DNA of 64,000 nt, taken from NCBI RefSeq assembly GCF_027579695.1, contig NC_083570.1, positions 100,700,963 through 100,764,962 on the forward strand. Direction: 5' to 3'. The translations under genes and the position numbers were made by a program. Below the pieces are notes generated by a model, which had not been told where the DNA came from, searched no databases, and was given only the letters and a program-made list of their open reading frames with translations. Shown here one piece after another: positions 7,740 through 42,626 of the stretch (position 1 is the first letter of the stretch; each line of letters begins with the position of its first letter). Source of the stretch: Neoarius graeffei (taxonomy: Eukaryota; Chordata; Actinopteri; Siluriformes; Ariidae).

Positions 7740-8356
7740 AGCATTTGGACCATCTGGCTTTCAGCCAGTGTTCACCCTTCCACCAGTAATTACAGGAATC
7801 ACCCCCTTGCAGGCATTGAGGTCACAGGACTCAGAATTCAGAAGGGGATCACCTTTATACTGCACAAGATCAGCTTTATACTGAAGAAGAGAGTGTATCA
7901 ATTTAACATTTTGACCTAATTAGCATAATTAATACTAATTAAATACTAATTTGAATAATGTGTTTTACCAATTTTTCAAGCTTTGTATTCAGTATACAAC
8001 CATCTATGTGCCTGCCAATTTCCATCTAAATATCTTGAAAAATAGAAAAGTTATTCAGAAAAAACACTTGATCTCATTGGTTAATGAAGCCCATTTTGGA
8101 CCATGTTATCCTAATACATAATATTAAGGCAGTTTTCTAAAAATTAAGCTGTTTTTTCAATCTTTGATTTGTAATATCTCAAGAACAGATAAACATCTTT
8201 TAATTCTGTAAAAAAAAGTATGTTGTTCTACATTCAATTCTGAATTCAATGATAGCAGTTTCAAGCAATTTGGATTGAATTCGAATTTTCACCTGATATG
8301 CCCAGTTTAACAATCACCTAATAGCAGATGACCTCAAAATTACATCAAGAGTCCAG
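7740..8356. other. No recognised feature
   Basis: AT-rich sequence between the LINE fragment and a MITE. Nothing recognised. Confidence 0.45.
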
Positions 8357-8359
8357 TTA

Positions 8360-9053
8360 TGGCCCTTTTCCACTACCCTTTTTCAGCTCACTTCAGCTCG
8401 CTTCAGCTCACTTCAGCCCGACACGGCTCGCGTTTCGACTACCAAAGAACAGCACGACTCGGCTCGCTTCAGCCCTGCTTAGCCCCTAAAACTTGCACCG
8501 TTTTGGAGTGGGGCTGAAGCGAGCCAAAGCGAGCCGAGTGAGGCTGGGGGCGTGAGCAGACACTCCCCTGTGCACTGATTGGTGAGGAGGAGTGTCCTCA
8601 CATGCCCACACACGCCCCGCGAGCACGCTGGGATCTGTAAACACCGTAAACCCGGAAGAAGAATAATTACGAATTACGAGAATTTCTGAAGCCTTATGCG
8701 CCTCGCCTCATCTATACGCTCTTGCCAGTATCTGTTGGCGCTGTCGGTGACAACAAGCCACAGCACCAAGACCAGCAACACTAACGACTCCATGTTTATT
8801 GTTTACTATTCGGGTCGTGAGACTACCGCTTAAAAGCTCACTGATGTCACTGTTTGCGCTGCTTAACGACATCACGTGACGTCCACCCACTTTCGCTAAC
8901 TCCACCCAATGTGTCCACCCACTTCCAGCCAGCACGGTTCAGCGCGGTTGTAGTCGAAATGCAACTCCAACAGCCCCGCTCAGCTCGACTCAGCCCAACT
9001 CAGCACGGCACGGCTCAGCCCGACTCAGCCGCGTTTGTAGTGGAAAAGCGGCA
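8360..9053. mobile_element. Harbinger-like MITE, copy A (TSD TTA)
   Basis: It starts TGGCCCTTTTCCACTACC and ends with the inverted form GTAGTGGAAAAGCGGCA. It is flanked by a 3-bp repeat TTA (8357-8359 and 9054-9056). The subterminal regions are runs of CAGCTCGCTTCAGC-like repeats on both sides. A near-identical copy lies inverted at 32640-33329. The 3-bp duplication suggests PIF/Harbinger. The minus-strand open frame at 8935-8708 is shared by both copies but has no known domain. Confidence 0.82.
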
Positions 9054-9059
9054 TTAGCT

Positions 9060-21016: not shown

Positions 21017-21764
21017 CATCTTATGTAACTAAAGGTAGAAATTTCATTGTCTGGTGGTCAAGTGTTTATGAGATACGTTGCCTTGCACCCACGATCGGGT
21101 TCCCTGTGGTGGTACACATACGTCGTTCATACAGAACGTATGGCAAAAGCCATCAAAAATCAAGTCGATGCATTACCATATTCTCTTAAGTATGGATCGT
21201 CACTCGTGTGCAGGGAGCTCCGCTAATATGAAAAGTTAAAATCACTTGAACAAATTGCTTCATAAACAGTCCTTATGCAACAATGTAGGCAAATATGCCT
21301 GATGTATTGTTTAACAGCAAAAGTGATGCTGATTTTCATATGTAATTGAGCACAGATTCAGATGTTTTGGACACTGGACTATTTTTTTCTTCCTGACCAT
21401 CATTATTTACAGATTAAACTAACCAGCAACTTACAATCAGTAGTAAAAATGTTGGATTAGATGTAGACGTAACCTCTATGTAACTATAGTTAGCTTAAAA
21501 TAGACATGACAACACTTTAGCTTTCACTGCCATGGCAAGATATAGCTGAACATTTACCACTGGGGGTTTTAGGGGTTCAGTAATTTTAATATTTTACATT
21601 CTCATATATTTTAATGTTCTGTGCCACTGCCACTGTTACAAACTTGGCAACTTTTTAGACGCAGCTAACAAATATAGTGATTTTTGGGGCAGATTCCACT
21701 GACTGTCCTGCAGCTTACAGAACAGCTGCTGGTTAGATGAGTTCAGGGAGCAGGTTCAGTCAAC
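21017..21764. other. No recognised feature
   Basis: Unique-looking sequence with no exon or repeat recognised. Confidence 0.4.
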
Positions 21765-23263
21765 TCACCACCAGTGTTCCCACTGACCAATCACTGATCA
21801 CTAGTGGTTCCATCGACCAATCGCTAATTGCCATTGTTTCCGTCAACCAGTCACTGATCACTAGTTTTTCCATCGACCGATCACTGATCGCCAGCATTCT
21901 CATTGAGCAATCACTACTTGCCATTGTTCCCTTCAACCAGTCACTGATCACCTCTGTTCCCAATGACTATCCACTGATCACCAGTGTTACAAAAGACTGA
22001 TCACTGATTACTAGTGTTCCCAAACAATAATCACTGATTGCAAATGTGCCTGATGACTAATCATCACTCATCAGTGTCCCCAACAATGAATCACCAATCA
22101 CCAGTGTTCCAAAGAACTAAACACTGATAGCTGTTGTTCCCAATGAATAATTACTGATCACTAGTATTCCCACCAACTGATCGCTGATCAAAAGTGTACC
22201 CAGTGACTCATCACAGATCACCAGTGTTCCTAATGAGTGATTACTGAGCATCATTGTTGCCTGTCACTAATCACCGATCACCTGTGTTCCCAAAGACTGA
22301 TCACAAGTGTTCCCATCAAGTGATCACTGATCACCATTATTACCCAAAGACTGATCACTGATCACTAGTGTTCACAAAGAATGATCACTAATCACCAATA
22401 TTCCCAAAGACTGATCACTGATCACAAGTGTTCCCAATGACTGATCACTGATCACAAGTATTCCAATCAAATGATCACTGATCACCAGCGTTCCCAATGA
22501 ATGATCACCACTCACTAGTGTTCCCAACAACTGATCACTGATCACAAGTGTTCGCACTTGAGCATATGAGTGCTCCCCATGACTTATCCCTGATCACCAC
22601 TGTTCCCAATGATTGATCACCAATCACTGTTCCCAATGACTGATCACTGATCACAAGTGTTCCCATCAAATGATCCCTGATCACCATTGTTCCCAACGAC
22701 TGATCACCAATCACTAGTGTTCTCAACAACTAATCACTGATCACCAGTGTTCCCAATGACTGTTTACTGATTAACAGTGTTCCCAATGACTGTTTACTGA
22801 TCACAAGTGTTCCAGATGACTGATCACTGATCATAAGTGTTCCCAATGACTGTTTATTGATCACAAGTGTTCCCAATGACTGATCACTGATCATAATTGT
22901 TCCCAATGACTGATCACTCATCACTAGTGTTCCCAATGACATTACTGATCACCAGTGTTCCCGATGACTGATCACTCATCACTAGTGTCCCCATCAAACG
23001 ATCACTGATCACTATTGTTCCCAATGACTGACCATCAATCACCAGTGTTCCCAATGACTGATCACTGATCACCAGTGTTCCCAATGGCCAATCACTGAGC
23101 ACCAGTGATCCCAATGACCAATCACTGATCACAAGCGGTCCCATCAAACAATCCCTGATCACCACTGTTCATAATGACTGATCCCCAATTGCAAGTGTTC
23201 TCAATGACTAATCACTGATCACCAGTGTTCCCAATGACTGATCACTGATCACCATTGTTTATC
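21765..23263. repeat. Minisatellite array, 30-bp unit
   Basis: About 50 degenerate tandem copies of a 30-bp unit containing TGATCACTGATCACCAGTG and TTCCCAATGAC. Variation is mostly point changes plus a few short units. Because 30 is a multiple of 3, the minus strand shows repeated 10-residue open-frame patterns (GTLVISDQSL). These are interrupted by stops and are not taken as a gene. Confidence 0.95.
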
Positions 23264-26214: not shown

Positions 26215-29200
26215 CTGGAGCCGGTTACAGTCACTGGTAAGCGTTGATACTTATCATTGTGGTCAGGACTGGAGTGACAAGGGCAAAAGATTTAAAAAGG
26301 CAGGAGTGCCTGCCCTACAGGGCATTTTATCTCGTTTTCTTGTACTGTGTAGGGGAGCCTATAGGGCATTGCGTCTCATTTGCTGCATTGGAAGTGTACC
26401 CATTATGACACTTCATCATGTTTCTTCCCACATACAATAGATGCACCCTATAGGGCATACACCCAATAGGTACACCCTATAGGGCACTGCATCGTGTACT
26501 TTCAACAGGAAGTGTACCCATTATGACACTTCATCAAAATAAAACCAGTTATAGTCACTGGCAAGCAGTCATATTTACTACTGTGGTCAGGGGTGGACAC
26601 AGGCTGAGGGGCAGAGGCAAAAATAAAAGGGACAGGAGCGCCTATAGGGCACTGCATCTCATTTGCTACATTGGAAGGGCACTCATTATGATGCTTCATC
26701 ATGTTTCCTCACACATACAATAGATACACCTTATAGGGCATACATCCTATAGGGCACTACATCATGTACTTTCAACAGGAAGTGTACCCATTATGACACT
26801 TCATCAAAATAAAACCAGTTATAGTCACTGGCAAGCGTTCATATTTACTACTGTGGTCAGGGGTGGACACAGGCTGAGGGGCAGAGGCAAAAATAAAAGG
26901 GACAGGAGCACCTACAGGGTATTTCATCTCATTTTCTTGTATGTAGGGGAGCCTATAGGGCACTGCATCTCATTTGCTACATTGGAAGGGCACTCATTAT
27001 GATGCTTCATCATGTTTCCTCACACATACAATAGATACACCCTATAGGGCATACATCCTATAGGGCACTACATCATGTACTTTCATCAGGAAGTGTACCT
27101 ATTATGACACTTCATCAAAATAAAACCAGTTATAGTCACTGGCAAGCGTTCATATTTACTACTGTGGTCGGGGTGGACACAGGCTGAGGGGCAGAGGCAA
27201 AAATAAAAGGGACAGGAGCACCTACAGGGTATTTCATCTCATTTTCTTGTATGTAGGGGAGCCTATAGGGCACTGCATCTCATTTGCTACATTGGAAGGG
27301 CACTCATTATGATGCTTCATCATGTTTCCTCACACATACAATAGATACACCCTATAGGGCATACATCCTATAGGGCACTACATCATGTACTTTCAACAGG
27401 AAGTGTACCTATTATGACACTTCATCAAAATAAAACCAGTTATAGTCACTGGCAAGCGTTCATATTTACTACTGTGGTCAGGGGTGGACACAGACTGAGG
27501 GGCAGAGGCAAAAATAAAAGGGACAGGAGTGCCTACAGGGCATTTCATCTCATTTTCTTGTATGTAGGGGAGCCTATAGGGCACTGCACCTCATTTGCTG
27601 CATTGGAAGGGTACCCATTATGACACTTCATCACGTTTCCTCACACATACAATAGATACACCTTATAGGGCATACACTCTATAAATACACACTATTGGGC
27701 ATACACCCAATAGATACACCCTATAAGGCACTGCATCATGTACACTCAACAGGAAGTGTACCCATTATGATACGTCATCAAAATAAAACCAGTTATAGTC
27801 ACTGGTAAGCATTCATATTCACCATTGGGGTCGGGGTGGAAACAGGCTGAGGGGCAGGGCCAAAAATAAAAAAGGCAGGAGCACCTACAGGGCATTTCAT
27901 GTCACTTTATTGTATGTAGGGGGCCTATGGGGCACTGCATCTCATTTGCTCTCTTGGAAGTGTACCCATTACGACACTTCATCATGTTTCCTCACACATA
28001 CAATAGACACATCCTATAGGGCACTGCATCATGTACTCTCCACAGGAAGTGTACCCATTATGACACTTCAAAATAAAACCAGTCATAGTCACTGGCAAGC
28101 ATTCTTATTTACCATTGTGGTCAGGACTGGACACAGGTTAAGGAGTTTTAATAAATTAAAAGGGCAGAAGCACCTCATTTTCTTGTATATAGGGGAGTCT
28201 ATAGGGCACTGCATCTCATTTGCTCCTTTGGAAGGGCACCCAATATGACACTTCATCATGTTTCCTTACACATACAATAGATACACCCTATAGGCCTCTG
28301 CATCATGTTCTCTCCAGAGAAAGGGTACCCATTATGACACTTCATCAAAATAAAATTAGTTATAGTCACTGGCAAGAATTCATATTTATCATTGTAGTCG
28401 GGGTGGACACAGGCTGAGGAGCAGGGGCAAAAATAAAAAGGGCAGGAGTACCTACAGGGCATTTAGTCTCATTTTCTTGTATGTAGGGGAGCCTATCGGG
28501 TACAGCATTTCATTTGCTCCATTGGAAGGTCACCCTTTATTAAACTTCATCATGTTTCCTCATGCATAGGTACACCCTATAAGGCAATGCATCAGGTATT
28601 TTCTACTAGAAGGGCACCCATTACAACACTTCATCTTTCCTTAAGTGTAGGTACACCCAATGGGGCACTGCATCATATATTCTACACTGGAAGGACAGCC
28701 ATTAGAACAATGCATCTTTCCTCACATGTAGGCATACCCTATAGGGTACTGCATCATGTGTTCTCCACCAGAAAGGCACACAATATGACATTTCATGATG
28801 TTTCCTCATATTGAGGAAAACTCTGTCGGGCACTGAAAAACATACTATCCACTGGAAGATCACTGAGTGAGCACTTCAGCACATTTTCTTGCATGCAGGT
28901 AAACCCTATAGGGCAATGCATCATGCACTCTCCATTGGAAGGGCACCCATTATGACATTTCATCATGTTTCCTCATTTTTAGGGAAACTCTATAGGGCAC
29001 TGCATCATGTAATCTTCACCAGAAGGGCACCCATTTTGACATTTCATATTTTCTCACACATAGGTACACCCTATAGGACACTGCACCACATATTCTCCAC
29101 TGGAAGGGCACCAATTTTGACATGTCATCATTCCTTACACATAGGTAAAACCCTATAGGGCACTGCATCATGCATTCTTCTTTGGAATGGCACCCATTAC

Positions 29201-29500
29201 AACACTTTATCATTCTTCACATGTAGGTACAGCCTATAAGGCACTGTTTCTAGTTTTTTTTTTCACTGGAAAGGCAGCCATTATGACACTTTAACATGTT
29301 TCCTCATACATAGGGAAACCCATAGGGAGCTGCATCATGGATTGTCCACTGAAAAACACCTAGAGGGCATGTCATCATTTTTTTTCCATTTGAAGGGCAA
29401 CCAAAAGGTCACATTTTCATGTTTTCACCACTGTAAGAGCAACATAGAAGACACTTTATCACATTTTTGTCAACTGTAAGGGCTCCAAGTGGGCACTTTC
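26215..29500. repeat. Complex satellite: ~80-bp subunits, ~310-bp higher-order units
   Basis: The left part (26215-28520) has eight higher-order units starting near 26221, 26547, 26818, 27129, 27440, 27793, 28082 and 28360, each containing AGTCACTGGCAAGC-like and GGGTGGACACAGGCTGAG segments. The right part (28520-29500) is built of about 80-bp subunits with CCCTATAGGGCACTGCATC and GGGCACCCATTATGACA. Two adjacent units are near identical (311-bp spacing). Similarity fades toward 29500. It begins right upstream of the gabrb promoter. Confidence 0.92.
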
Positions 29501-30568
29501 ACTGTCACCGAATCTAGCAACAAAGTCTACCTCTAAAGTCACAGCCTACCTCTGCCATTTTGTTTTTGCTAACAAGACAGATTAACCACTGTTATTACCC
29601 TACAGGAACAAGAGCTACAGTAGTGCTTGAAAGCTTGTGAACCCTTTAAAATTTTCTATATTTCTGCATAAATATGACCTAAAGCAACATCAGATTTTCA
29701 CACAAGTCCTAAAAGTAGATAAAGAGAACCCCGTTAAACAAATGAGACAAAAACATTATACTTGGTCATTTATTTATTAAGGAAAATGATCCAATATTAC
29801 ATATCTGTGAGTGGCAAAAGTATGTGAACCTTTGCTTTCAGTATCTGGTGTGACCCCCTTGTCACTGCAACTAGACGTTTCCGGTAACTGTTGATCAGTC
29901 CTGCACACCGGCTTGGAGGAATTTTAGCCCATTCCTCCATACAGAACAGCTTCAACTCTGGGATGTTGGTAGGTTTCCTCACATGAACTGCTCGCTTCAG
30001 GTCCTTCCACAACATTTCGATTGGATTAAGGTCAGGACTTTGACTTGGCCATTCCAAAACATTAACTTTATTCTTCTTTAACCATTCTTTGGTAGAATGA
30101 CTTGTGTGCTTAGGGTCGTTGTCTTGCTGCATGACCCACCTTCTCTTGAGATTCAGTTCATGGACAGATGTCCTGACATTTTCCTTTAGAATTCACTGGT
30201 ATAATTCAGAATTCATTGTTCCATCAATGATGGCAAGCCGTCCTGGCCCAGATGCGGCAAAACAGGCCCAAGCCATGATACTACCACCACCATGTTTCAC
30301 AGGTGGGATAAGGTTCTTATGCTGGAATGCAGTGTTTTCCTTTCTCTAAACATAACTCTTTTCATTTCAACCAAAAAGTTATATTTTGGTCTCATCCATC
30401 CACAAAACATTTTTCCAGTAGATAGTTTTCACATGACGTCACAGAGTCGGGGATTCCCTAATGGCGGCCATCTTGCGGGTCAAGCTTACTGTACGGGTGA
30501 CAGCACACATTGTAACGTGTGAGTACAAAGTCTTCAAAAGAACCCAAGCAGGCTATTTAAAGCTAGCA

Positions 30569-30778
30569 ATGGTGCACACCTGTTGTATTCACGGCTGTAG
30601 TAATAGGTCAGATGATGAAGTCAAGCGGAGCTTTTATGGAATTCCCACTGTACGGGAGCATGAAGGCGAGCAAACAAACTCAGCATACAAAGGAGAAATC
30701 TATGGCTTGCAAGAATCAACTGCAAGGATTATCAGCCTTCCAAACACAACAAAGTCTGCTCCGATCATTTTATAAGTG
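30569..30778 (+). pseudogene. THAP zinc-finger exon of a transposase
   Basis: It starts MVHTCCIHGCSNRS, then KRSFYGIP. After a frameshift it continues [15 protein letters not shown], followed by a GTAAGT donor. CxxxxC, FYxxP and VCSDHF are the C2CH THAP hallmarks. THAP domains bind DNA at transposon ends in several superfamilies. The frameshift and loss of downstream exons make it dead. Confidence 0.75.
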
Positions 30779-31023
30779 GTAAGTTGTTTAAATGAACAAT
30801 CAATTGTGTTTGTTTGTTTTTGGAAACCAAAACATCATGTGAACAATCTCTGGAGAATGCCTAACTGGAACCGCTGAGTGTGCGTTTACATTGTAATGTA
30901 CACTTAATATCACTCGTTTGTCACGTTTCTATTTGACACTTGTCACTTCACTCACGCAAGGGTCATTTTTGAAAAACATTTTAGGTCTATTCTGTATGAT
31001 TTGATTTGTGTTTGGGATGCAAA

Positions 31024-31478
31024 CAGCGCGCCTTTTGGCGGATGCCGCCTGAATCGCGCAGATCCAATTTTTTTTTTTTTTGGGGGGGGGGGGGGGGCGT
31101 TGGAGTGTCTGATTATAATTTCAAAGTAAATTCTGTATTAAAATTACTAAATAAGCAAATCCGTTACAGTCCATGAAACAGGAAGTATAAGGATGAGAAA
31201 AAAACAGTTTAAATCGGGAAGCTGCGCACATTTGCGCAGCCCGAGCGGTGTGCAGGACTGCGCAAATGTGCGCAGCTTTGCGATTTAAACTGTTTTTTTT
31301 TCTCATCCTTATACTTCCTGTTTCATGGACTGTAACGGATTTGCTTATTTAGTAATTTTAATACAGAATTTACTTTGAAATTATAATCAAACACTCCAAC
31401 GCCCCCCCTAAAAAAAAAAAAATCGGATCTGCGCGATTCAGCCGTGAAAAAGGCCAAAAGGCACCAAAAGGCGCGCTG
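31024..31478. repeat. 455-bp palindrome inside the THAP element
   Basis: Arms of about 215 bp share CAGCGCGCC, CGCGCAGATC, a G/C homopolymer run, AAATCCGTTACAGTCCATG and GCGCACATTTGCGCAG. The loop is about 15 bp near 31245. One arm holds T and G homopolymers (31067-31097) that are shorter in the other. Confidence 0.88.
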
Positions 31479-31533
31479 TGAATATATAAAGTTGTATATA
31501 TCAGACAGCCTTTAAAGTTTGATGAAGTCAGTT

Positions 31534-31719
31534 TCAGGCTTTGGAGCAGGCTTTGGCAGTTTCAGGCTTTGGCAGCCCTGCATAGTCACTTGAAAATGCA
31601 TCTTTGTCCACTTCGTAGGGGTCAATTCCCCCAATCAAGGCCAGTTTGGCTGCATACCGTTGTCGTGAGATGTCGTCTAATGTATCTATATACTTCTGTT
31701 TGCTTGATTTTGCCGACAT
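31534..31719 (-). pseudogene. N-terminus of second transposon protein (IDPY motif)
   Basis: A 61-residue frame reads MSAKSSKQKYIDTLDD, then RYAAKLALIGGIDPYEVDK. It resembles the start of large fish transposon proteins that in intact copies carry a nuclease-like domain; that assignment is from memory. It runs opposite to the THAP exon. A related remnant is at 43334-43260. Confidence 0.55.
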
Positions 31720-32639
31720 TGATCTTTATTTTAGAAAACTGACTATATAACTTCATAAATTTGTCCAAGATAACGTAGCCGGTAGTGGCGATGGTCCGTT
31801 TTGTTTGCCCCCCAAGATGGTGGCTGGGGGGCGTTCCCCGGAATGCTATGACATCAGTGAAAACTACCTATAGCCTTCTGGCTTGTCCACGTGATCTTTA
31901 GCAAACTGCAGATGAGCAGTAATGTTCTTTTTGAAGAGCAGTGGCTTTCTTCTTGCAACCCTGCCATGCACACCATTGTTGTTCAGTGTTCTCCTGATGG
32001 TGGACTCATGAACATTAACATTAGCCAATGTGAGAGAGGCTTTCAGTTGCTTAGAAGTTACCCTGGGGTCCTTTGTGACCTCGCTGACTATTACACGCCT
32101 TGCTCTTGGAGTGATCTTTGTTGGTCGACCACTCCTGGGGAGGGTAACAATGGTCTTGAATTTCCTCCATTTGTACACAATCTGTCTGACTGTGGATTGG
32201 TGGAGTCCAAACTCTTTAGAGATGGTTTTGTAACCTTTTCCAGCCTGATGAGCATCAACAATGCTTTTTCTGAGCTCCTCAGAAATCTCCTTTGTTCGTG
32301 CCATGATACACTTCCACAAACATGTGTTGTGAAGATCAGACTTTGATAGATCCCTGTTCTTTAAATAAAACAGGGTGCCCACTCACACCTGATTGTCATC
32401 CCATTGATTGAAAATACCTGACTCTAATTTCACCTTCAAATTAACTGCTAATCCTAGAGGTTCACATATTTTTGCCACTAACAGATATGTAATATTGGAT
32501 CATTTTCCTCAATAAATTTTTTGTCTCATTTGTTTAACTGGGTTCTCTTTATCTACTTTTAGGACTTGTGTGAAAATCTGATGATGTTTTAGATCATATT
32601 TATGCAGAAATATATAGAAAATTCTAAAGGGTTCACAAA

Positions 32640-33329
32640 TGCCGCTTTTCCACTACAAACGCGGCTGAGTCGGGCTGAGCCGTGCCGTGCTGAGTCGGGC
32701 TGAGCGGGGCTGTTGGAGTTGCATTTCGACTACAACCGCGCTGAACCGTGCTGGCTGGAAGTGGGTGGACACATTGGGTGGAGTTAGCGAAAGTGGGTGG
32801 ACGTCAGGTGATGTCGTTAAGCAGCGCAAACAGTGACATCAGTGAGCTTTTAAGCGGTAGTCTCACGACCCGGATAGTAAACAATAAACATGGACATGGA
32901 GTCGTTAGTGTTGCTGGTCTTGGTGCTGTGGCTTGTTGTCACCGACAACGCCAACAGATACTGGCAAGAGCGTATAGATGAGGCGAGGCGCATAAGGCTT
33001 CAGAAATTCTCGCAATTCGTAATTCTTCTCCTTCCGGGTTTGCGGTGTTTACAGATCCCAGCGCGCTCGCGGGGCGTGTGTGGGCATGTGAGGACACTCC
33101 TCCTCACCAATCAGTGCACAGGGGAGTGTCTGCTCACGCCCCCAGCCTCACTCGGCTCGCTTTGGCTCGCTTCAGCCCCACTCCAAAACCGTGCGAGTTT
33201 TAGGGGCTAAGCAGGGCTGAAGCGAGCTGAGTCGTGCTGGTTTTTGGTAGTCGAAACGCGAGCCGTGTCGGGCTGAAGTGAGCTGAAGCGAGCTGAAGTG
33301 AGCTGAAAAAGGGTAGTGGAAAAGGGCCA
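32640..33329. mobile_element. Harbinger-like MITE, copy B (TSD AAA)
   Basis: Inverted relative to copy A at 8360-9053. Starts TGCCGCTTTTCCACTAC and ends GTAGTGGAAAAGGGCCA. It is flanked by AAA (32637-32639 and 33330-33332), recreating the Tc1 end it split. Confidence 0.9.
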
Positions 33330-33350
33330 AAACTTTCAAGCACCACTGTA

Positions 33351-40085: not shown

Positions 40086-40672
40086 GTTTGTATTTCCCTC
40101 TCAGCTCTGTCCTTAGTGTTTTCCAAGTACTTTTCTTGCTATGTGTCATTACTTTACGGTACTTTTTTTTTTTTAGTCACGAAGTGCTAAAGTCCCCAGC
40201 TGTTTCTTTGTTTACTCCTCACAAAGTCCATATGCATGAAGGTCGTGACAAAATTCTTCCCCAGCCGTACAGTTACAATGCGCCGTGATCACTTCTCCGT
40301 CTTGTTTAACTAAGATCCAGGTCTTTAAAGGGGTTTCTGATTATCTTTGTGAATGATTTAGCTGAGAGATAAGAGCCAACACAAGTGAAAATCAAGCCAA
40401 CTGTTGTTTGTTTACACTTCAACTTGTAGCGCTTTGTTGTAAAGATGTGAACGAAAAGCTTAAAAAACATAGTTACACGGGCAAAAACAATACAGGATTC
40501 ATTCAGCAGCGACTTGATAGCGAGGTCCTTTACCCAGCCACATACAAAAAAAGTTGTAAGCCTCCATACTCTTCCACGCTTTCATCTGTTTTGCGGTGTA
40601 GAAGGACGTCTGCAACACCAGATAGTTCGAGATGTCGGGGAACTCGACTGAAGGGTAGTTTTCGAGATCGTA

Positions 40673-42299
40673 CAGTGCTCAGCGTAAATGAGTACACCCC
40701 CTTTGAAAAGTAACATTTTAAACAATATCCCAATGAACACAAACAATTTCCAAAATGTTGACAAGACAAAGTTTAATATAACATCTGTTTAACTTATAAC
40801 GTGAAAGTAAGGTTAATAATATAACTTAGATTACACATTTTTTTCAGTTTTACTCAAATTAGGGTGGTGCAAAAATGAGTACACCCCACAACAAAAACTA
40901 CTACATCTCGTACTTTGTATGGCCTCCATGATTTTTAATGACGGCACCAAGTCTTCTAGGCATGGAATGAACAAGTTGGCGACATTTTGCAACATCAATC
41001 TTTTTCCATTCTTCAACAATGACCTCTTTTAGTGACTGGATGCTGGATGGAGAGTGATGCTCAACTTGTCTCTTCAGAATTCCCCATAGGTGTTCGATTG
41101 GGTCCAGATCAGGAGACATACTTGGCCACTGAATCACTTTCACCCTGTTCTTCTTCAGAAATCCAACAGTGGCCTTAGATGTGTGTTTAGTCATGTTGGA
41201 AAAGTGCACGACGACCAAGGGCACAGAGTGATGATAGCATCTTCTCTTTCAGTATAGAGCAATACGTCTGTGAATTCATGATGCCATCAATGAAATGCAG
41301 CTCCCCGACACCAGCAGCACTCATGCAGCCCCACATAAGGACACCGCCACCACCATGTTTCACTGTAGGCACCATGCATTTTTCTTTGTATTCCTCACCT
41401 TTGTGACGCCATACAGTTTTGAAGCCATCAGTTCCAAAAACATTTATCTTGGTCTCATCACTCCAGAGTATAGAGTCCCAGTAGTCTTCATCTTTGTCAG
41501 CATGGGCCCTGGCAAACTCTAGGTGGGCTTTTTTGTGCCTGGGCTTTAGGAGAGGCTTCTTTCGTGGACGGCATCCATGCATGCCATTCCTCTGCAGTGT
41601 ACATCGTATTGTGTCACGGGAAATAGTCACCCCAGTTTGGCTTTCTACTTCTTTAGATGACTGCAGTGAACTTGCATGCCGATTTTCTTCAACCCTTCTC
41701 ATCAGAAGACGCTCCTGTCAAGGTGTTAACTTCCATGGACGACCTGGACGTCTCTGTGAGCTGGTTGCAGTTCCAGCTTTCTTAAATTTTTGTACCACTT
41801 TTGCTACAGTATTCTGACTGATAAGTAAAGCTTTGCTGATCTTCTTGTAGCCTTCACCTTTGTGGTGTAAAGAAATTATTTTCTTTGGGGAATTCTGAAG
41901 AGACAAGTTGAGCATCACTCTCCATCCAGCATCCGGTCACTAAAAGAGGTCATTGTTGAAGAACGGAAAAAGACTGATGTTGCAAAATGTCGCCAACTTG
42001 TTCATTCCATGCCTAGAAGACTTGGTGCTGTCATTAAAAATCATGGAGGCCATACAAAGTACGAGATGTAGTAGTTTTTGTTGTGGGGTGTACTCATTTT
42101 TGCACCACCCTAATTTGAGTAAAACTGAAAAAAATGTGTAATCTAAGTTATATTATTAACCTTACTTTCACGTTATAAGTTAAACAGATGTTATATTAAA
42201 CTTTGTCTTGTCAACATTTTGGAAATTGTTTGTGTTCATTGGGATATTGTTTAAAATGTTACTTTTCAAAGGGGGTGTACTCATTTACGCTGAGCACTG
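40673..42299 (-). mobile_element. Tc1 element (family 3), rearranged
   Basis: Ends CAGTGCTCAGCGTAAATGAG and its inverse are flanked by TA. The right end is not the original one: from 41887 on it is an inverted copy of the left end, including transposase C-terminal sequence. The N-terminal coding end has been lost. Confidence 0.85.
40901..41918 (-). pseudogene. Tc1 transposase (family 3), broken
   Basis: Minus-strand pieces: [19 protein letters not shown] (HTH; 41918-41718) ends in an in-frame TGA. The same frame resumes with RDTIRCTLQRNGMHG and SILWSDETKINVFG (first catalytic Asp), ending LFQHD (second Asp) at 41187. After a frameshift, SPDLDPIEHLW carries the Glu (41224-40901). The residues before SPKKII derive from the inverted arm, not from the original N-terminus. 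Confidence 0.85.
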
Positions 42300-42626
42300 T
42301 ACGATCTCGAAAACTACCCTTCAGTCGAGTTCCCTGACATCTCGAACTATCTGGTGTTGCAGACGTCCTTCTACACCGCAAAACAGATGAAAGTGTGGAA
42401 GAGTATGGAGGCTTACAACTTTTTTTGTATGTGGCTGGGTAAAGGACCTCGCTATCAAGTCGCTGCTGAATGAATCCTGTATTGTTTTTGCCCGTGTAAC
42501 TATGTTTTTTAAGCTTTTCGTTCACATCTTTACAACAAAGCGCTACAAGTTGAAGTGTAAACAAACAACAGTTGGCTTGATTTTCACTTGTGTTGGCTCT
42601 TATCTCTCAGCTAAATCATTCACAAA

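Follow-up and report, generated by a model that had tools for sequence, protein, structure and literature searches.

A shell element inside a Tc1 transposon

The window, a stretch of 64,000 nucleotides of Neoarius graeffei DNA, contains a Tc1 transposon interrupted by a second element of 1.45 kb, whose ends, AGATAGTTTTCAC and GTGAAAACTACCT, are inverted repeats of 13 bp (Table 1). Between these ends lie the first exon of a THAP transposase gene with part of its intron, a long palindrome and, on the opposite strand, the first coding exon of a YqaJ-nuclease gene. An earlier note on this DNA had placed an element here, and a position check on the window showed its bounds to be exact; the note had also recognized the central palindrome, which is real and measures about 457 bp.

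Table 1. Parts of the element and its Tc1 host, in positions of the window.
Feature	Position	Strand	Supporting evidence
Host Tc1, one interrupted part	29616..30417	-	93-95% to three other window Tc1 copies
Left target duplication (GT in place of the expected AT)	30418..30419	.	Empty Tc1 sites
Whole non-autonomous ISL2EU element, palindrome-bearing family B	30420..31869	+	39 other scored places, AT duplications
Left terminal inverted repeat, AGATAGTTTTCAC	30420..30432	+	
THAP-domain first exon of the transposase gene, from ATG to splice donor, with a 4-nt frameshift here	30569..30778	+	
THAP intron 1, left portion, with GTAAGT donor	30779..31013	+	Collinear with the C29 element
Outer end of the repeat unit taken up by the element, GGGATGCAA	31014..31022	+	Absent there in longer ISL2EU copies
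Palindrome with a pair of inverted arms, each about 220 bp	31023..31479	.	Consensus arm alignment
Palindrome spacer	31240..31257	+	Flipped in 3 of 50 fetched rows
THAP intron 1, further sequence	31480..31546	+	Consensus 100% identical to C29 over 67 bp
Filler of 26 bp where the deletion was sealed, made of copies of CAGGCTTTGG and CAGTTTCAGGCTTTGG	31547..31572	+	
YqaJ-nuclease gene, first coding exon (MSAKSSKQKYIDTLDD...GGIDPYEVDKDAFSSDYAGLP), directed inward	31570..31719	-	
Right terminal inverted repeat, AGGTAGTTTTCAC on the minus strand	31857..31869	-	
Right target duplication, AT	31870..31871	.	Empty Tc1 sites
Host Tc1, other part	31872..32639	-	93-94% to the same three window Tc1 copies

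The element recurs throughout the genome. A search of 2.34 Gb in 38 contigs placed the window copy beside 39 other places at 91-96% identity (40 scored of 2,802 first-look candidates), and the element is therefore no chance assembly. A majority consensus built from 21 copies is 1,451 bp long, and 38 aligned copies differ from their own consensus by 1.2-2.8% substitutions. One further end of the same transposon type, 77% similar, lies about 1 kb from a family copy (L066:3335-3395).

Both coding remnants proposed in the earlier note proved genuine. The THAP exon, which points inward from the left with its splice donor, is open in the consensus, where it matches the Pfam THAP model at E=2.3e-10, and is 94% identical to the THAP exon of a longer element at C29 described below. 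The 4 nt whose absence shifts the frame of the window copy are missing from 12-13 of the 38 aligned copies, and the two halves of the window exon score separately (E=0.021 and 7.5e-05). The peptide pointing inward from the right, MSAKSSKQKYIDTLDDISRQRYAAKLALIGGIDPYEVDKDAFSSDYAGLP, gave no Pfam match by itself but shares 98% identity with exon 1 of the YqaJ gene at C29; YqaJ exon 1 of the window copy is 84-88% identical to three copies at C17. Its last 3 nt (TGG on the plus strand) are common to exon and filler. Because the THAP exon is frameshifted and the YqaJ exon runs into the filler, these remnants can hardly function in the window copy. Rfam at gathering threshold returned no match in the 64-kb window.

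The target had been given as AT, and the family bears this out. The window copy itself has GT on its left and AT on its right, so one side has decayed; the empty site reads CCA-AT-AGCC in two of the three uninterrupted Tc1 paralogues of the window and CCAAAAGCC in the third. AT stands on both sides of 33 of the 34 distinct family copies with both ends complete (50 fetched rows, minus 10 with incomplete ends and six that repeat a place), the exception being L024. Among the 10 incomplete-end rows, three (the window copy, L015 and L023) are known to lack AT on at least one side, and over the first 21 copies, with none dropped, 17 have it. Compared with the A-AT-T target of ISL2EU, the base before AT in the 33 copies is T in 16, A in 15, N in one and C in one, and the base after it is A in 19, T in 13 and G in one, so the neighbours are nearly all A or T and not strictly A..T. 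TA as the target duplication was rejected, since the element boundaries fit AT with A/T neighbours.

Three distinct family copies (window 30418-31871, L026 and L079) sit at one and the same Tc1 AT in the same orientation, and two tested Tc1 copies offer 36 and 39 W-AT-W sites. Any two of the three have only 0-2 rare variants in common, which disfavours a single inherited Tc1 composite as the simple cause, and L026 is not flanked by Tc1 on its left; the site would be a hot spot for insertion, or the arrangement an old composite. A repeat of about 700 bp forms an inverted pair in the window (8355-9055 and 32638-33334, 96% identical), one copy of which starts at the end of the interrupted Tc1.

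Longer relatives and assignment to ISL2EU

A YqaJ domain (PF09588) was found at 71 places in the genome, 30 of which were cut out for comparison. Four of these 30 loci match the right end of the family, and the same four carry the first-exon peptide at 84-98% identity; a fifth matches the peptide at 42%, and by DNA eight of the 30 belong to the family of the window element. The element at C29 (32832419-32838956) spans 6.5 kb with a nested Tc1 inside it, and that at C17 runs from 3051516 for at least 4.87 kb. In both, the THAP exon and DDE frames share a strand, and the YqaJ gene runs towards them on the opposite strand, 3′ ends facing, an arrangement that does not imply that either copy is intact. 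Longer copies with a THAP transposase and a convergent nuclease gene are what the earlier note had proposed a genome search would find.

Pfam domains were matched in these relatives for the transposase (THAP, E=3e-09; HTH_Tnp_4, E=6.7e-20; DDE_Tnp_4, E=8.3e-39) and for the second gene (YqaJ, E=3.6e-21; Viral_alk_exo, E=9.3e-08). The THAP, HTH and DDE domains at C17 and C29 fall on separate exons or open reading frames that predicted splicing would join, and the YqaJ second ORF is an open stretch of 532 aa in the C17 relative. The second protein also has SWIM-like and PHD-like cysteine patterns, recognized by eye and without a Pfam match. The family consensus is collinear with the C29 element over positions 3-602 (97.5% identity), 1062-1128 (100%) and 1152-1451 (91%).

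These features agree with ISL2EU, a transposon type known from fish and a member of the PHIS (Harbinger-like) superfamily, for which passages of PMC4482050 and PMC9179366 give an AT duplication, a THAP/HTH/DDE transposase, a YqaJ second ORF and a length of about 4.84 kb. Our family shares the AT duplication, with neighbours that are nearly all A or T; its longer relatives combine a THAP, HTH and DDE_Tnp_4 transposase with a YqaJ exonuclease gene and lie near 4.9 kb (at least 4.87 kb at C17). ISL2EU terminal inverted repeats measure 6-259 bp and usually start with GG, a tendency and not a requirement in PMC4482050; the 13-bp repeat here is within that length range but starts with AG. Unlike ISL2EU, the window copy is a shell without coding capacity that has kept only the THAP exon of the transposase and carries a foreign palindrome. 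The window element is thus a gutted ISL2EU derivative, and the family call made in the earlier note was right.

Six near-identical YqaJ copies at C17 (L029, L030 and L033-L036) lie about 0.4-0.6 Mb apart on one strand between 2.20 and 4.52 Mb and look like a large segmental tandem array. At C11, a cluster of seven places (37.94-38.31 Mb) matches THAP intron 1 of C29 at 96-98%.

A deletion junction apart from the palindrome

Alignment to the C29 element separates two changes that the window copy presents side by side. Consensus positions 1-602 and 1062-1128 lie only 48 bp apart at C29, and in the consensus those 48 bp of THAP intron 1 are replaced by the palindrome and the 9 bp that precede it, GGGATGCAA. 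Beyond position 1128 the match resumes only at the right-hand end of the longer element, leaving out 5,543 bp at C29, about 1.6 kb of which is the nested Tc1 absent from C17, and 3,879 bp at C17, so that about 3.9 kb was lost. At this second junction, the 26-bp filler repeats CAGGCTTTGG and CAGTTTCAGGCTTTGG of the adjacent intron and joins the right side at TGG. The family consensus shares this filler with L095, L096 and L097, and exact matches to the 36-nt filler junction number 813 in the genome (393 forward, 420 reverse, families A and B as defined below pooled). Filler copied from so close by would be a mark of repair synthesis.

The earlier note had read the palindrome as a replacement for everything between the ends. 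Its two-gene, convergent ISL2EU-type shell stands, while the replacement does not: the gene bodies were lost at a separate junction further to the right, and the palindrome therefore did not take their place. A single event that exchanged the whole interior for the palindrome would account for a central palindrome and an absent coding body, but not for the 67 bp of THAP intron that follow the palindrome on its right, nor for the filler junction beyond them. A deletion that preceded the palindrome predicts shells with this junction and no palindrome, and this prediction was tested by search. The query, 243 nt of ordinary intron plus filler junction, matched all 40 scored places (of 401 candidates) at 98-100% identity, seven of them at 100%, with 38 aligned over the full length and two short by two bases. 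One such shell, of what is here called family A, was read whole; it is 1,037 bp long with AT on both sides. Together with the collinearity to C29, these shells refute the single-event replacement, to which we assign practically no probability.

Palindrome-free sequence is also present in longer copies. The palindrome site is ordinary intron in all four YqaJ-bearing relatives read there, one of them C29 and the other three from the C17 array and not independent of one another. In a search with the intron itself, which also scored the place of the query, 37 of 40 scored places align unbroken across the site; of the three uninformative places, one starts inside the site and two beyond it. Because the intron and junction queries favour palindrome-free places, these counts establish existence and not proportions. 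A second palindrome-free family of deletion derivatives has a different break, copy L094 joining positions 2191 and 7779 of the C29 string.

Could the palindrome instead be native to the autonomous element and have been lost from the copies sampled? All 30 palindrome loci that were cut out, the window included, lie in this family (40 scored of 1,612 candidates), and long palindromes are unstable, as such a loss would need. However, the ordinary 48-bp intron in the four longer relatives (three from the one array), the second derivative family and family A all speak against it, and exact restoration of the same intron sequence after each loss is implausible. We consider a native palindrome very improbable.

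The foreign repeat and its inverted dimer

The palindrome (31023-31479, about 457 bp) is built on arms at 31091-31204 and 31295-31408, 114 nt each and 99% complementary, extended by flanking arm segments. Aligned with each other, the two consensus arms agree at 209 positions and differ by 2 substitutions and 28 gap columns, and an 11-nt insertion in one arm is missing from 10 of 38 copies, so that the founding palindrome was near perfect. The spacer is flipped in L025, L069 and L075, three of 50 fetched rows of which six repeat a place.

Evidence from outside the family shows that the arm is a separate, dispersed, TA-flanked repeat and not ISL2EU, and that the palindrome is its inverted dimer. 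GGGATGCAA recurs elsewhere beside unrelated flanks ending in TA, and the outer end with foreign neighbours, DVGGGATGCAAACAGCGCGCC, has eight sites, five of them after TA. Two such sites, at C16 and C17, were read and have unrelated flanks; no second arm was seen 440-570 bp further in at either. A search with 278 nt of flank and arm, in which 40 of 778 candidates were scored, produced 41 main rows. Fourteen of these begin at TA before GGG and contain 205-216 bp of arm with no adjacent inverted partner, and it is these single units that set the arm apart from ISL2EU; the remainder comprise 24 rows with an inverted partner and three without. Partners were scored only near each candidate, and a more distant one would escape. 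The C17 place that supplied the query flank does not appear among the 41 rows, which implies a short or diverged arm at that place. TG before TA is common to 11 of the 14 TA-flanked rows, which leaves the exact edge of the repeat uncertain by a few bases. In the fetched loci, family sequence outside family copies amounted, for the arm, to short homopolymer matches only. The pattern S-K-ACAGCGCGCCTTTTGGCGG occurs at 60 sites, all with the flank CT; the three that were read (L095-L097) are all ISL2EU derivatives.

How the dimer arose admits two principal readings. The palindrome may be a nested transposon with a TA target, consisting of two long inverted ends and almost no interior, that transposed into family A. 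Its outer end, GGGATGCAAACAGCGCGCC, adjoins TA and unrelated flanks elsewhere, and family B (the palindrome-bearing family of the window copy) and L096 bracket the insertion point in an intron stretch with TA sites. L096 carries the same filler junction and has a palindrome with other breakpoints (C29-string 1897 and 1939), with the intact outer end on the opposite side; because these breakpoints differ, a single palindrome insertion is not proven. Against a nested transposon stand the lack of a clean TA duplication around the palindrome and the lack of any free-standing palindromic copy, either at the two ends read or among the 14 TA-flanked rows. We give this reading a chance only just short of even.

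Alternatively, repair of a break may have taken up a single repeat unit and, through template switching or foldback, doubled it on the spot into an inverted dimer. In all 14 TA-flanked rows outside ISL2EU the unit looks single, the filler of nearby origin in this element suggests error-prone repair synthesis, and gap filling with template switching is described for terminal-repeat transposons of animals in passages of PMC8277862, where the deletions are mostly small; passages of PMC4168063 likewise invoke abortion, slippage and template switching in gap repair for Galileo. Both outer ends nevertheless survive, once each (the left in family B, the right in L096), which a ready-made symmetric unit would explain more easily. 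Dimer formation in place is a serious but tentative candidate, and we would not put it at even chances.

Proposed history and parallels

We consider it very probable that a two-gene ISL2EU element gave rise to the deleted shell of family A, that this shell gained the inverted dimer to become family B, and that family B was then amplified. In the first step, a two-gene element would have lost the stretch between THAP intron 1 and YqaJ exon 1, the break being sealed with 26 bp of filler from the adjacent intron that met TGG, leaving a shell of about 1.04 kb; repair synthesis is the presumed source of both deletion and filler. In the second, an inverted dimer of the different, TA-flanked repeat would have entered intron 1 of a family-A copy with the loss of 48 bp, giving the 1.45-kb palindrome-bearing element. 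Family B would then have amplified by cut-and-paste into AT targets, one copy landing in the window Tc1. Family A presumably preceded family B, because it shares the ordinary intron with the longer copies. Judging from the shared ends and the AT duplications, the shell was most likely mobilized in trans, and the THAP/DDE transposase of the longer relatives would have supplied the activity.

A bolder extension, which we regard as improbable, is that a near-perfect hairpin of about 450 bp from an unrelated repeat, once captured in the shell, passed through the transposition cycle many times without being a burden, and was captured or repositioned more than once, perhaps aided by the YqaJ exonuclease, of recombination type, encoded by these elements; within this reading, the two placements in family B and L096 point to more than one such event.

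Several features have precedents. Internal deletion, short homology at the junction and foreign sequence inside the ends are shared with the defective cut-and-paste derivatives, products of faulty gap repair or template switching, described in passages of PMC4168063 and PMC8277862. The cases of captured sequence in the latter mostly involve small deletions, with a median of 4.6% of element size, whereas here most of the element is gone; and, unlike in the derivatives of those passages, families A and B and the longer relatives are all present in one genome.

Comparison with MITEs is also instructive. These elements are short, non-coding and present in high copy number, with terminal inverted repeats, and the present family resembles them in all of these respects. 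It differs in its length, 1.45 kb being longer than typical, in its exon remnants, and in an internal palindrome distinct from its terminal repeat.

No description of the present derivative appeared among the matches listed in a search of openly available papers, and the literature search on ISL2EU with palindromes or MITEs had no ISL2EU among the matches listed. The element is mostly ordinary; its history is unusually readable and its genealogy unusually complete. One genome holds the series of two-gene element, deleted shell and shell with palindrome, including a filler that bears the mark of repair synthesis, so that the origin of a non-autonomous family can be followed nucleotide by nucleotide. 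The series also indicates that a long palindrome can persist through repeated transposition, and it carries a warning for annotation, in that the palindrome is foreign to the element in which it lies.

Elsewhere in the window, long minisatellites occupy 21757-23260 (units of 30, 60 and 90 bp) and 26640-29351 (311-bp and then 81-bp units). A 744-bp inverted pair (40346-41089 and 41883-42626), 99% identical, surrounds frames that by eye resemble a Tc1-type transposase.
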